From: Curtobacterium sp. L6-1
Lineage (GTDB): Bacteria; Actinomycetota; Actinomycetes; Actinomycetales; Microbacteriaceae
Direction of reading: 5' to 3'
DNA: 64,000 bases
Assembly (NCBI RefSeq): GCF_018885305.1
Contig: NZ_CP076544.1
Span: forward strand, 806,001-870,000
The notes under the pieces are model-generated. The model did not search any database. It saw nothing but the letters and a program-made list of their open reading frames with translations, and was not told where the DNA came from. The position numbers and the translations under genes are program-made. Of this stretch, positions 34,207 to 53,044 are shown in pieces (within the stretch, counting starts at the first letter, position 1; each line of letters begins with the position of its first letter).

Positions 34207-35262
34207 CTACGCCGTGCCCGGGTCCTCGCCGCCCATCCCGGTCAGCAGCGCACGGAACGAGTCGAGCCGCTCGATGCCCGTCGGCCCGAGCTCCCCGCCG
34301 GCGACCCGGTCGACGATCTCCCAGTCGTGCGCCTGGTCGAGCGGGATGCCGTCGGGAGCGTCCTGCACCGGCACCGCGTGCGAGGCGAACGCGCGGAACA
34401 CGTTCTCGGGCTCCACGTGCCCCAGGCCGAACGAGCGGACGCCCGGGGTGTCGATGATCCACCCGCCGTCGTGCACCCGGAGGGCGATGGACGACGACGA
34501 CGTGTGCCGGCCGCGGCCGGTCACCGAGTTGACGACGCCGATCGCCCGGGTGGAGCCCGTCAGCGCGTTGACCAGCGTCGACTTGCCGACGCCGGAGTGC
34601 CCGACCGTGACGGTGACCTTGCCGTCGAGCAGTTCGTGCAGGGCCGCGAACGGCACGTCGTCGGACCGGCTCGTCACGATGCGCAGGTCGAGGCAGGCGA
34701 AGTGCGCGAGGAAGTCGGCTGGGTCGGCGAGGTCGGTCTTGGTGATGCAGAGCACCGGGTCGAGGCCGGCGTCGAACGCCGCCACGAGGTACCGGTCGAT
34801 GAGGCGGGTGCGGGGCTCGGGGTCGGCGGCTGCGACGACGATGAGCATCTGGTCGGCGTTCGCGACGATGACGCGCTCGACCTCGTCGGTGTCGTCGGCG
34901 CTGCGGCGGAGCAGGGTGGTCCGTTCGGCGACGCGGACGATGCGGGCGAGCGAGCCCTCGGCGCCGGAGACGTCACCGGTCAGCGAAACGTGGTCGCCGG
35001 TGACGACGGACTTCCGGCCGAGCTCGCGGGCCTTCGTCGCGGTGATGACGTGCTCGCCGTCGGCGTCGGACACGAGCACACCGAAGCGCCCGCGGTCGAC
35101 GTTCGTCACCCAGCCGCTCGGGGCGTCCTCGTAGGCGGGACGCGTCTTCGTGCGCGGCCGGTTGCCCTTCGGGTTCGGTCGGACGCGGACGCTCGACTCG
35201 TCGTACTGACCGTACGGCTCGTCCTCGTCGGCGCCGCCGTCGGTGTCGTCCCACCAGCTCAT
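34207..35262 (-). CDS. rsgA: Ribosome small subunit GTPase RsgA
   Basis: 351-residue circularly permuted GTPase for late 30S maturation. An acidic N terminus leads into an OB-fold (about 50-115), then G4 ITKTD, G1 GHSGVGKST and G3 DTPG in permuted order. The C-terminal region, which in most RsgA proteins holds a Cys-x-His-x-Cys zinc site, has no cysteine here: the corresponding part reads FGLGHVEPENVFRAF. The ATG overlaps the aroA stop by four bases, the usual actinobacterial aroA-rsgA order. Assignment is secure; loss of zinc binding is read from the sequence. Confidence 0.93.
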   Translation of the reverse strand: MSWWDDTDGGADEDEPYGQYDESSVRVRPNPKGNRPRTKTRPAYEDAPSGWVTNVDRGRFGVLVSDADGEHVITATKARELGRKSVVTGDHVSLTGDVSGAEGSLARIVRVAERTTLLRRSADDTDEVERVIVANADQMLIVVAAADPEPRTRLIDRYLVAAFDAGLDPVLCITKTDLADPADFLAHFACLDLRIVTSRSDDVPFAALHELLDGKVTVTVGHSGVGKSTLVNALTGSTRAIGVVNSVTGRGRHTSSSSIALRVHDGGWIIDTPGVRSFGLGHVEPENVFRAFASHAVPVQDAPDGIPLDQAHDWEIVDRVAGGELGPTGIERLDSFRALLTGMGGEDPGTA

Positions 35263-36686
35263 GCCGGGTCTCCCTGTCGTGTGCCGGTGGTGTCCGGTGC
35301 GTCGGTGCGCCCGGCCGTGTCCGCCCCGGGAGCGGTGGCGAGGGCGTCGTCCGCCGTCGCGACGAGTGCGGCCCACAGCTCGGGGAACTGCGGCAGCGTC
35401 TTGGCGGTCGACCCGATGTCGTCCACGGCCACCCCCTCGGTGACGAGCCCGACGACGGCCCCGGCGGTCGCCATCCGGTGGTCGTCGTGCGCCGCCCACG
35501 CGCCGCCGGAGAGGCGGGCCGGCTCGACCCGCAGGCCGTCCTGCTGTTCCGCCACCGCGCCTCCCAGGCCGCCCACGTCCGCCGCGAGCGCCGCGAGCCG
35601 GTCCGTCTCGTGGCCGCGCAGGTGCCCGATGCCGGTGATCTCGCTCGGTCCGTCGGCCAGCGCCGCGAGCGCGACGAGCGCCGGTGCGAGTTCGCCGCCG
35701 CGGGTCAGGTCCAGGTCGACACCCGGCAGGGAGGCGCCGCCCCGGATCCCGACGCCGCCGTCGAACACGAGGTCGTCGCCGTCGCGCGTGACGGTCGCGC
35801 CCCAGCGCGGCAGCAGCGTCTCGAGGTCCGCGCCGACCTGCGTCGTCTCGGTCGGCCAGGTCCGGATCCGGACCGTTCCGCCGGCGACCAGGGCGGCGAC
35901 CGCGAAGGGCGCGGCGTTCGACAGGTCGGGTTCGATGGTGACGTCCCGCGCGGCGATCGGTCCGGGGCGGACGACCCACTCGCCGACCGACGGCTCGTCG
36001 ACGCGGACGCCGCGGGCGCGGAGGACGTCGACCGTCATCGCGATGTGCGGCATGCTCGGCAGGCGGTCGCCGACGTGGCGGAGGTGCAGTCCCTCGGTGA
36101 AGCGGGGCGCGGAGAGCAGCAGGCCGGAGACGAACTGGGACGAGGCCGACGCGTCGATCTCAAGGCTGCCACCCCGCACGGCCCCGGTGCCGACGAACGT
36201 GAACGGCATCGCGCCGCCGCCGTCGTCGGTGACGTCGACGCCGAGGTCGACGAGCGCACGGATGATCGCCGCCATCGGACGCTTCCGGGCGTAGGGGTCG
36301 CCGTCGATCGTGACCGGGCCCTCGGCGAGGGCGGCGAGCGGCGGCAGGAAGCGCATCACGGTACCGGCCAGGCCGCAGTCGACGCGGACGTCGCCGTGCA
36401 TCGCGCCCGGGGTGACGAGGAGGTCCGGCCCGTAGGGGTTCGCCGCCGTCCCGGGTGTCGGCTCGACCTCGTCGATCCCGACGCCGAGCTGCCGGAGCGC
36501 GGTCGTCATGAGCGCCGAGTCGCGCGAGTGCAGGGGGAGCCGGATCGTGCTCGGCCCGTCGGCGAGGGCGGCGAGCACGAGCTCCCGGTTCGTCAGCGAC
36601 TTCGAGCCGGGCAGGGCGACGTCGCCGGCGAGCGGGCCGCGCGCGACGGGGGCGGTCCAGGGGCGGGAATGCGTCGTGGCAACCAT
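35259..36686 (-). CDS. aroA: 3-phosphoshikimate 1-carboxyvinyltransferase (EPSP synthase)
   Basis: 475-residue shikimate pathway enzyme joining PEP to shikimate-3-phosphate. Signature segments: [17 protein letters not shown] (S3P site), [40 protein letters not shown] and [12 protein letters not shown]. The tail of about 35 residues after ALVATAD is Thr/Asp-rich. Start ATG 36686 is nine bases from a TAGTGT box, so nearly leaderless; this box and the ATG are covered by a 27-bp palindrome. Coupled to rsgA downstream and divergent from the SigR-type gene. Confidence 0.95.
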
Positions 36687-36691
36687 CGGTT
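36666..36691 (+). promoter_or_regulatory. SigR/SigH-type promoter upstream of the sigma gene
   Basis: GGAAT (36666-36670), exactly 18 bases, then GTT (36689-36691): the consensus of Streptomyces SigR and mycobacterial SigH promoters. It reads toward the sigma gene and lies inside and just upstream of the divergent aroA start. A start near 36698 would feed the ribosome binding site at 36714-36720. This suggests positive autoregulation. Confidence 0.7.
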
Positions 36692-36711
36692 CACCACACT
36701 ACTGAACCGAT
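36685..36711. promoter_or_regulatory. 27-bp palindrome over the aroA start and the sigma promoter
   Basis: ATCGGTTCA-N9-TGAACCGAT, perfect 9-bp arms. It covers the aroA start codon and its TAGTGT box and the GTT of the SigR-type promoter. A regulator bound here would affect both directions. Confidence 0.5.
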
Positions 36712-36724
36712 CGGGAGGAGCACG

Positions 36725-36838
36725 GTGATCGCACTCGCACCGTCACGAACGGCCGACGCAGCACTGCTGCCGGGGGCCGTCACGACGCTCGTCGAGCCGC
36801 AGGGCCCGGACATCGACGTCCGCCTAGACTGGCGGGCG
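36725..36838 (+). other. N-terminal extension for a longer sigma isoform
   Basis: GTG at 36725 has an excellent GGGAGGAG ribosome binding site and is in frame, with no stop, with the sigma gene. It would add 38 residues ([15 protein letters not shown] onward) to the short protein begun at 36839. Confidence 0.6.
36825..36830 (+). promoter_or_regulatory. -10 box for the short sigma isoform, leaderless
   Basis: TAGACT eight bases before the ATG at 36839, a housekeeping-type promoter giving a leaderless message. Confidence 0.55.
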
Positions 36839-37675
36839 ATGACGACCGACGAACCGCAGCACGCACCGGACGACCTGGTCGAGGAGACCGAGGAGCAGCT
36901 CGACGCCGTCGAGGACGAGGAACTCGCCGACGGGGCCGACGCCCGGTCCGACGACGAGCCCGTCGACGGCGACGCCGGTGCCGACAGCGAGCCCGTCGAC
37001 GCCAAGACCGTCTCCGAGCACGAGCTGCGCAGCCTGTTCGAGGACCAGGCCCTGCCGTTCATGGACCAGCTCTACGGCGCAGCCATGCGGATGACCCGCA
37101 ACCCGGCCGACGCCTCGGACCTCGTGCAGGAGACGTTCGTCAAGGCCTTCGCCGCGTTCCGGCAGTTCCGCCAGGGCACGAACCTCAAGGCGTGGCTCTA
37201 CCGGATCCTGACGAACACGTTCATCAACACGTACCGCAAGAACCAGCGGAACCCGTACCAGGGCACCATCGACGAACTCGAGGACTGGCAACTCGGCGGC
37301 GCGGAGAGCGTCACCCAGTCGATCTCCGCCCGGTCCGCCGAGGCCGACGCGATCGACCACCTGCCGTCCTCCGCCGTGAAGGACGCCCTCCAGGCCATCC
37401 CGGAGGACTTCCGGATGGCGGTCTACTTCGCCGATGTCGAAGGCTTCTCGTACCAGGAGATCGCCGACATCATGAAGACCCCCGTGGGGACGGTCATGAG
37501 CCGCCTCCACCGTGGACGCCGGCTCCTGCGCGGACTGCTGGCGGACCACGCACGCGAGACCGGTGTCGTCCCGGACGCAGCGTCGACGGCGACGATGCGC
37601 GGACGAGGCCGCGGTGCAGGCACGCGGACGGCCACGACGGCCGGTTCCCGCACGACCCGGAAGGACGCACGATGA
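36839..37675 (+). CDS. sigH: ECF sigma factor, SigR/SigH/RpoE class
   Basis: 278 residues from ATG 36839 or 316 from GTG 36725. An acidic disordered N terminus of about 60 residues is followed by region 2 ([19 protein letters not shown], then [24 protein letters not shown] end) and region 4 ([35 protein letters not shown]). These match the thiol-oxidative-stress sigma factors SigR of Streptomyces and SigH of mycobacteria. The Thr/Arg-rich tail is variable. Its stop overlaps the start of an RsrA-like anti-sigma gene, the expected partner. It has an apparent self-type promoter and a separate housekeeping promoter. The symbol follows mycobacterial usage. Confidence 0.9.
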
Positions 37676-37914
37676 GCGGGTGCGACTGCTCGAAGGCCAA
37701 GGCGGAGCTCGAGGAGTTCCTGCACGACGAGCTCCGGCACGAGGACGCCGCGGACATCCGCGAGCACATGGACGGCTGCGAGGACTGCCTCACCGAGCAC
37801 CGCGTCGGCGTGGTGCTCATGGAGACCGTCAAGCGTGCGTGCCGCGAGACCGCTCCGGACCAGCTCCGCGACGAGGTCCTCGCACGCCTGCGTGCGGTGC
37901 AGTCGACCCACTGA
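37672..37914 (+). CDS. rsrA: Zinc-binding anti-sigma factor, RsrA/RshA-like
   Basis: 80 residues with the ZAS signature [11 protein letters not shown] (H-x3-C-x2-C) and an upstream CDCSK cysteine pair at residues 4-6, the layout of RsrA, where zinc-bound cysteines form a disulfide on oxidation and free the sigma factor. The ATG overlaps the sigma stop (ATGA). Mycobacterial RshA and Streptomyces RsrA have the same size and position. Disulfide stress as signal is inferred from family. Confidence 0.9.
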
Positions 37915-51615: not shown

Positions 51616-51641
51616 GGAATGTCGGTCCGCGGGGCCGCGTT
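51616..51641 (+). promoter_or_regulatory. Second SigR/SigH-type promoter match, upstream of the MFS exporter
   Basis: GGAAT (51616-51620), exactly 18 bases, GTT (51639-51641). It points to the MFS gene 135 bases downstream. A chance hit is possible since one match per strand in tens of kilobases is not rare. Confidence 0.4.
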
Positions 51642-51775: not shown

Positions 51776-53044
51776 ATGTCGCAGCTCACGCCGGCACGTC
51801 GCACGCTCGCCATCCTCGCCCTCGCGCTGGGAGGCTTCGCCATCGGCACGACCGAGTTCGTCGCGATGGGCCTGCTGCCGAACATCGCCGAGGCCCTGTT
51901 GCCCGGCCAGTACGCCGCCGATCCGGAGGGCGGGGTCGCCCACGCCGGATGGCTCGTCAGCGCCTACGCCCTGGGAGTCGTCGTCGGCGCCCCGACGATC
52001 GCCGCGATGTCGGCGAAGTTCCCGCGCAAGGGCCTGCTCATGGTGTTGCTCGTCGGCTTCGCGATCGCGACGGTCGCCAGCGCAGTGCTGCCCTCGTTCG
52101 GGCTCGTCCTCGTCGCGCGGTTCGTCGCCGGTCTGCCGCACGGCGCGTACTTCGGGATCGCCTCGATCGTGGCCGGCGACATCATGGGGCCGGGAAAGCG
52201 TGGCAAGGGCATCGCGCTCGTGCTCCTCGGACTGTCGGTCGCGAACGTCGTCGGCGTCCCCGCGGTCACCTGGATCGGACAGGTCGCCAGCTGGCGGGTC
52301 GCCTACGGCGTCGTCGCAGCCCTGTTCGTCCTGACCTTCCTCGCGGTCTCCGCCTTCGTCCCGCGCAGTGCACGGGACCTCGACGCCACGATCGGCCGCG
52401 AACTCCGCGTCTTCCGCCTGCCGCAGGCCTGGATCGTCATGGGTCTGGGAGCGGTCGGCTTCGGCGGGTTCTTCGCCGTCTACTCGTACATCTCGCCGCT
52501 CGTGCAGAACGTCACCGGGCTGTCGGAGTCCGCCGTGCCACTGGTGCTCGTCGTCGTCGGGCTCGGCATGGTCGTCGGTGGGCTGCTCGGTGGCTTCCTG
52601 GCCGACCACAGCGTCAAGGCCACGATCTTCGTCGGCCTGTTCGCCCTGGTCGGGGCCTTGCTGATCACCGTCCTGACCGCGCAGTGGGTCGTCGGGCTCT
52701 TCGTGGGCGCGTTCCTGCTCGGTGCCACCTCGTCGGCGATCCCGCCCGCAGTGCAGTCACGCCTGATGGACGTCGCCGGCGACGCCCGCACGATCGCCGC
52801 GGCCCTCAACCACTCCGCGTTCAACCTCGGCAACTCCTTGGGAGCGGCCCTCGGTGGTGCGGTCATCGCGGCTGGCTTCGGGTTCCTCGCGCCGGGCTGG
52901 CTCGGCATCGGGCTCGCGCTGCTCGGTGTCGTCGTCGCCGTGATCAGCTACGCCGTCGAGAGCCGGGCGAACCGACGCGCAGCGGCGGTCCGGACCGCGG
53001 GGGCGAGCACCGGCCCGATCCGCGAACCCGTCTCGTCGCACTGA
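51776..53044 (+). CDS. MFS exporter, AraJ/Cmx drug or sugar efflux type
   Basis: 422 residues with 12 membrane helices. N terminus LAILALALGGFAIGTTEFVAMGLLPNIA is the hallmark of the DHA1 branch with AraJ, Cmr and Cmx. The motif A loop reads AAMSAKFPRKGLLM, and motif C-like LGLSVANVVGVP is in helix 5. Chloramphenicol or sugar efflux are the best known roles. Two promoter candidates lie upstream, one SigR-type, so stress control is possible. The gene is followed by the repeat-rich gap. Confidence 0.88.
   Translation: MSQLTPARRTLAILALALGGFAIGTTEFVAMGLLPNIAEALLPGQYAADPEGGVAHAGWLVSAYALGVVVGAPTIAAMSAKFPRKGLLMVLLVGFAIATVASAVLPSFGLVLVARFVAGLPHGAYFGIASIVAGDIMGPGKRGKGIALVLLGLSVANVVGVPAVTWIGQVASWRVAYGVVAALFVLTFLAVSAFVPRSARDLDATIGRELRVFRLPQAWIVMGLGAVGFGGFFAVYSYISPLVQNVTGLSESAVPLVLVVVGLGMVVGGLLGGFLADHSVKATIFVGLFALVGALLITVLTAQWVVGLFVGAFLLGATSSAIPPAVQSRLMDVAGDARTIAAALNHSAFNLGNSLGAALGGAVIAAGFGFLAPGWLGIGLALLGVVVAVISYAVESRANRRAAAVRTAGASTGPIREPVSSH

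Follow-up and report, generated by a model that had tools for sequence, protein, structure and literature searches.

The window, by which we mean the whole 64,000-nucleotide stretch of DNA analysed here, comes from a Curtobacterium-like genome of 3,402,814 bases and contains a divergently arranged pair of genes, sigR and aroA. The sigma factor gene sigR lies on the forward strand (36839..37675; 278 codons plus stop in its short form), and its product scores 300 bits against the SigH_actino profile TIGR02947, above the curated cut-off of 251.55 for this SigR/SigH sigma group. Its stop codon is overlapped (ATGA) by the start of an adjoining forward-strand ORF (37672..37914), an RsrA-like zinc anti-sigma factor in which the HxxxCxxC zinc-binding motif is present as HMDGCEDC; this ORF reaches 24.2 bits against PF13490 (cut-off 22.2) and 61.4 bits against the RsrA equivalog TIGR03988, slightly below that profile's cut-off of 62.5. 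Divergent to sigR, on the minus strand, is aroA (35259..36686), coding for an EPSP synthase (TIGR01356, 341.3 bits, cut-off 287.25). Direct reading of the DNA around the two starts reveals, along the forward strand, the SigR-type self promoter p2 (36666..36691; GGAAT at 36666-36670, an 18-nt spacer and GTT at 36689-36691), a Shine-Dalgarno (SD) sequence GGGAGGAG (36713..36720), an in-frame GTG at 36725 opening a 38-codon N-terminal extension (36725..36838) that is free of stops throughout, and the p1 -10 element TAGACT (36825..36830), which falls inside codons of that extension (cTA GAC Tgg) and is separated by eight bases from the ATG at 36839. The original prediction had called p2 correctly to the base, and the GTG adding 38 residues and the spacing of TAGACT from the short start likewise proved to be as it described them.

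These features were compared across loci at increasing phylogenetic distance. The genus set comprises 59 loci, the window's own included (59 of 60 genomes gave a match), and the set from the rest of the family, Microbacteriaceae, comprises 74 loci from 42 genera, drawn from the best-scoring matches (282 of 299 family genomes matched); the duplicate loci L071, L090 and L091 were left out of the counts. To these were added 30 family genomes, mostly low-scoring or of genera that had no earlier sampling, and a wider set of 78 class and order loci outside Microbacteriaceae.

The exact GGAAT-N18-GTT occurs upstream of sigR in 59/59 genus loci and 60/74 other family loci, and the remaining 14 family loci have the same elements at a different spacing (N17 in 13, N19 in one); p2 with a spacer of 17-19 nt is present in 133 of 133 loci, 119 of them with N18. 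Mononucleotide-shuffled upstream regions yield the exact motif in only 34 of 26,600 cases, and the conservation of p2, as judged by this comparison, is above chance. A looser pattern detects a p2-like site in 28 of the 30 added family genomes and none in the other two, with CAT lying 1-3 nt before GTT in 26 of the 30. Outside Microbacteriaceae, a looser pattern (GGAA[TC], spacer of 16-19, no more than 800 nt upstream of the sigma core), applied without a shuffle control and weaker as evidence, finds a p2-like site in 75/78 class and order loci. From its sequence and conservation, we infer that p2 is recognised by SigR; it would be induced by thiol stress, with a predicted transcript start near 36698. 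The p2 leader (36698-36760) gave no sign of RNA structure (z-score 0.22), and no Rfam match over 36400-37100 reached its gathering score. An inverted repeat, GTTCA-N9-TGAAC (36689-36707), which overlies the p2 -10 and the aroA -10 and occurs once in the window versus a shuffle mean of 0.01, was rejected as an operator: it is found at six places in the genome, and at this position in 36/59 genus loci and 0/74 other family loci.

The element assigned to p1 keeps a fixed place. TANNNT stands exactly at -14 from the short ATG in 58/59 genus and 71/74 family loci, and only three instances in all fall at another offset between 6 and 39. Its TA belongs to a CTA codon in 105 loci, to GTA in 21, to ATA in two and to TTA in one, while NTA codons elsewhere number 0/2276 in five window genes and 12/10,640 in sigR cores, being somewhat raised in the rest of the extensions (33/2998). 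The fixed offset, together with the rarity of NTA codons, thus argues that a promoter -10 is maintained within the extension at the level of DNA. None of the 59 genus loci and one of the 74 family loci carry an SD of 5 nt or longer before the short ATG. The p1 mRNA, giving the short form, is probably leaderless, with which the spacing of the -10 agrees. When the last in-frame ATG or GTG is taken as the start in the class loci, TANNNT lies at -14 in 39/78; when any in-frame ATG or GTG is allowed, it lies at -14 in 51 and at -11 in 13 of the 75 loci with a p2-like site.

The start of the long form shows the opposite signature. With the long start taken as whichever in-frame candidate had the best SD, a choice that favours high SD values, the SD is 5 nt or longer in 58/58 genus and 57/74 family loci, the corresponding counts at random coding positions being 112/1160 and 122/1480. 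Reading frame was assessed separately by picking the best SD-led start in any frame. This start and the short ATG share a reading frame in 57/58 genus and 56/57 family loci, with one out-of-frame case in each set, and the frame is kept across 16 distinct extension lengths in the genus and 21 in the family; for an untranslated stretch, about one third would be expected in frame. The any-frame search found no start led by an SD of at least 5 nt in one genus locus and 17 family loci, and in L093, the genus locus left out of the 58 with a chosen long start, the extension is interrupted by a stop in frame. An upstream in-frame start is also kept in 26 of the 28 added family genomes that have a p2-like site; beyond the family, 73 of the 75 loci with such a site offer an ATG or GTG in frame, 12 codons or more before the short start. 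Two low-similarity family genomes (L336 and L347) keep p2 and the -14 TANNNT, lack an upstream in-frame start and may have lost the long form. In two further family loci (L062 and L110), the chosen long-form ATG lies just 9 nt after GTT, and there the long form may be leaderless too.

What is conserved in the extension appears to be its frame and its presence, with its sequence conserved little, or in some lineages only. A dN/dS test for purifying selection on the extension in Curtobacterium came out against it: the ratio is 1.19 in the window's clade and 0.62, 0.99 and 0.82 in three other clades, and over 58 genus loci it is 0.74, with 0.92 and 0.79 in the other two frames. After ATG 36839, the acidic tail has a dN/dS of 0.25-0.49 and the core at most 0.09. 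Since the amino acids of the extension are hardly constrained within the genus, these comparisons give no support for a conserved degron sequence in Curtobacterium. In the other family loci, a motif chosen post hoc, [VLI]L[ED]x(0-2)P, occurs near the N-terminus in 29/74 (shuffles: mean 0.9, maximum 5). In this strict form, it occurs in 0/58 genus loci, and a looser version, again chosen after viewing the sequences, in 24/58 (shuffles: mean 9.1, maximum 17). Either a tag that acts by being unstructured or a weak function would fit the low constraint. By analogy with the Streptomyces system considered below, the long form would be turned over faster than the short one.

The claim that the promoter lies inside the divergent aroA start holds well beyond the window. 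Here the aroA ATG (minus strand, 36686-36684) sits in the p2 spacer, as it does in 59/59 genus and 68/74 family loci, preceding GTT by 2 nt in 114 loci and by 1 nt in 13. A TANNNT element is found 13-15 nt upstream of the aroA ATG in all 59 genus loci and in 68/68 family loci with the ATG in p2; in the window this is the probable aroA -10, TAGTGT (36696..36701, minus strand), which covers the predicted p2 start. Simultaneous use of both promoters would therefore hardly be possible, and we infer from this arrangement that transcription from p2 and transcription of aroA are mutually exclusive; that SigR firing lowers aroA expression is a prediction. The overlap also reaches into the protein: with the aroA ATG in the p2 spacer, the -35 falls within aroA codons 6-7, and GGAAT thus fixes them as NAT-TCC, which is seen in 127/127 loci and reads His/Tyr-Ser in most, although in five window genes NAT makes up 6/319 of the NAT plus NAC codons. 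Outside Microbacteriaceae, aroA is seen in 20/78 stretches, many of the others being too short to show its place, and in one it comes to within 600 nt of the sigma core. Among the loci examined, the sequence comparison places the overlap of p2 with the aroA start in Microbacteriaceae only. The one exception in gene proximity is locus L206, from a different family of that class: its divergent aroA lies within 282 nt of the sigma core, and it has no p2 by the looser pattern.

The exact GGAAT-N18-GTT occurs 24 times in the window's own genome, versus 0 for the reversed pattern. With the downstream ORFs chosen by hand, a same-strand ORF with a family match starts within 135 nt of 22 of the 24 sites; at the other two (L145 and L156) the downstream ORF is without a family match. 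The genes behind the sites include trxB, which is a SigR target in Streptomyces (PMC4921905), together with trxA, msrB, nrdH, sufB and sigR itself. Further ones encode a superoxide dismutase, a ClgR-like regulator, a TIGR03086 (mycothiol-dependent type) protein, an IMP dehydrogenase, two FMN reductases, two luciferase-like oxidoreductases and an NADH:flavin oxidoreductase, among others; the superoxide dismutase, the ClgR-like regulator and the cut-off IMP dehydrogenase score under the NCBIfam curated cut-offs. The site before the clgR-like gene (L149:525-830, minus strand; 102.6 bits, cut-off 170) is only suggestive of a possible link to Clp control. A second exact motif in the window (51616-51641, forward strand) lies upstream of an MFS transporter ORF (51776-53041). 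Five sites of the genome (L001, L003, L006, L148 and L158) are positioned 3-10 nt before the start codon of a family-matched ORF, which suggests SigR-dependent leaderless genes.

We propose that the locus is a SigR-RsrA thiol-stress switch in which the choice of promoter decides the isoform, and we consider this full explanation of the locus very probable. In the basal state, p1, a promoter of the housekeeping type, would give a leaderless mRNA starting at or next to ATG 36839 and hence the short sigma factor. Upon oxidation of RsrA, the freed SigR would fire p2, and the mRNA starting at about 36698 would be translated from the SD-led GTG at 36725 into a sigma factor longer by 38 residues. As the internal ATG is without an SD, the p2 mRNA should yield mainly the long form. 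Both promoters would thus be embedded in coding DNA, the p1 -10 in codons of the extension and the p2 -35 in aroA codons 6-7.

The most serious competitor of this switch is a simpler one, in which p2 is real and autoregulatory, the short protein alone matters and the stretch upstream of it is an untranslated or irrelevant leader. The weak constraint on the extension's amino acids in the genus is what such a leader would show, and the in-frame stop of L093 and the two low-similarity family genomes without an upstream in-frame start point the same way. Yet a leader of this kind leaves unexplained why the SD-led start is in frame in 57/58 and 56/57 tested loci at so many different lengths, and, since the long start has an SD that the short ATG lacks, translation of the short form from the p2 mRNA would be poor. 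We therefore regard autoregulation by itself as unlikely. Less probable by a good measure is the converse, that only a single long protein exists, ATG 36839 never serving as a start and TAGACT being a coincidence of codons. The long ORF is indeed open throughout in the window; this reading, however, must attribute to chance a TANNNT at one exact offset in 129/133 loci, spelled by codons that are otherwise very rare, and it sits poorly with the stronger constraint that sets in after ATG 36839, beginning with the acidic tail, than before it.

A different kind of objection concerns p2 itself: GGAAT might be kept solely as aroA coding sequence, the SigR promoter being a by-product. It does fall in codons 6-7, where most loci encode His/Tyr-Ser, but the amino acids alone would hardly demand the invariant use of NAT, a codon so disfavoured relative to NAC in the window genes. 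Moreover, p2 is retained in six family loci whose aroA starts outside it, and a p2-like site (looser pattern) is present in 75/78 loci outside the family; of these 78, only L206 has aroA no farther than 600 nt from the core, and L206 itself is without p2. Of all the readings considered, we hold this one to be the least probable.

How this switch relates to known systems can be gauged from the pertinent papers. In the Streptomyces coelicolor loop, transcription from p2 by SigR yields a longer, short-lived SigR', which is removed by Clp (PMC5472188; PMC4921905). The present locus resembles that SigR/SigR' system (sigRp1, sigRp2) in its SigR-type upstream promoter, here recognised by sequence, in the predicted longer N-terminal isoform, in the downstream promoter for the short form and in the ATGA overlap with RsrA. 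It differs in the extension, which in S. coelicolor has 55 (PMC4921905) or 58 (PMC5472188) residues and has been shown to be short-lived, as opposed to 38 residues here; in the start of the short form, GTC with a ribosome-binding site there (PMC5472188) and ATG without an SD, probably leaderless, here; and in the setting of the promoters, p1 answering to WblC in S. coelicolor and p2 overlapping aroA here. The original prediction that this organism keeps the loop is supported in part, as regards the SigR-type self promoter, the two in-frame starts with separate promoters, the RsrA-like partner and the place of the promoter in the aroA start; thiol induction and an unstable long form would complete the correspondence. 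The short start and the weak constraint on the extension set the locus apart from the models that the prediction named. Mycobacterium tuberculosis sigH and sigE likewise combine a downstream p1 with an upstream p2 that SigH-type sigma factors can recognise, and sigE p1 is described as leaderless; the genes or the gene order differ, and the excerpted text mentions no aroA overlap (PMC4921905). The sigH-rshA operon of Corynebacterium glutamicum is an orthologous sigma/anti-sigma operon, its SigH being tied to thioredoxin genes; unlike the locus described here, sigH there has four SigA-type promoters, and transcription of the operon is reported not to depend on SigH (PMC3489674). A SigH-clgR link in that organism comes from earlier reports cited in PMC3489674, whose own study saw no change in clgR. 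Taken together, sequence and comparison support an architecture that corresponds to a known loop with a different arrangement of overlaps.

A search of the literature by title returned no paper about sigR in Microbacteriaceae and none about promoters overlapping between sigR and aroA; these observations would extend the SigR' loop from Streptomyces to a large family that has no SigR study by title in the literature searched. One practical consequence is that an annotation with just one of the two starts leaves out half of the system. The locus would also be a clean case of its kind, in that the isoform would depend solely on which promoter is used, one mRNA being leaderless and the other having an SD-led start. 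More tentatively, and as a possibility that we rate as rather doubtful in its entirety, the sigR-aroA junction of Microbacteriaceae may be a doubly overprinted switch, in which the firing of p2 shuts off an aroA that is itself leaderless while making the stress isoform and thereby ties thiol stress to the shikimate pathway, the Curtobacterium extension being a tag kept for its frame and presence and not for its sequence. The direct prediction is that aroA expression would be lower under thiol stress, and a SigR-dependent drop of this kind would, if true, be new.
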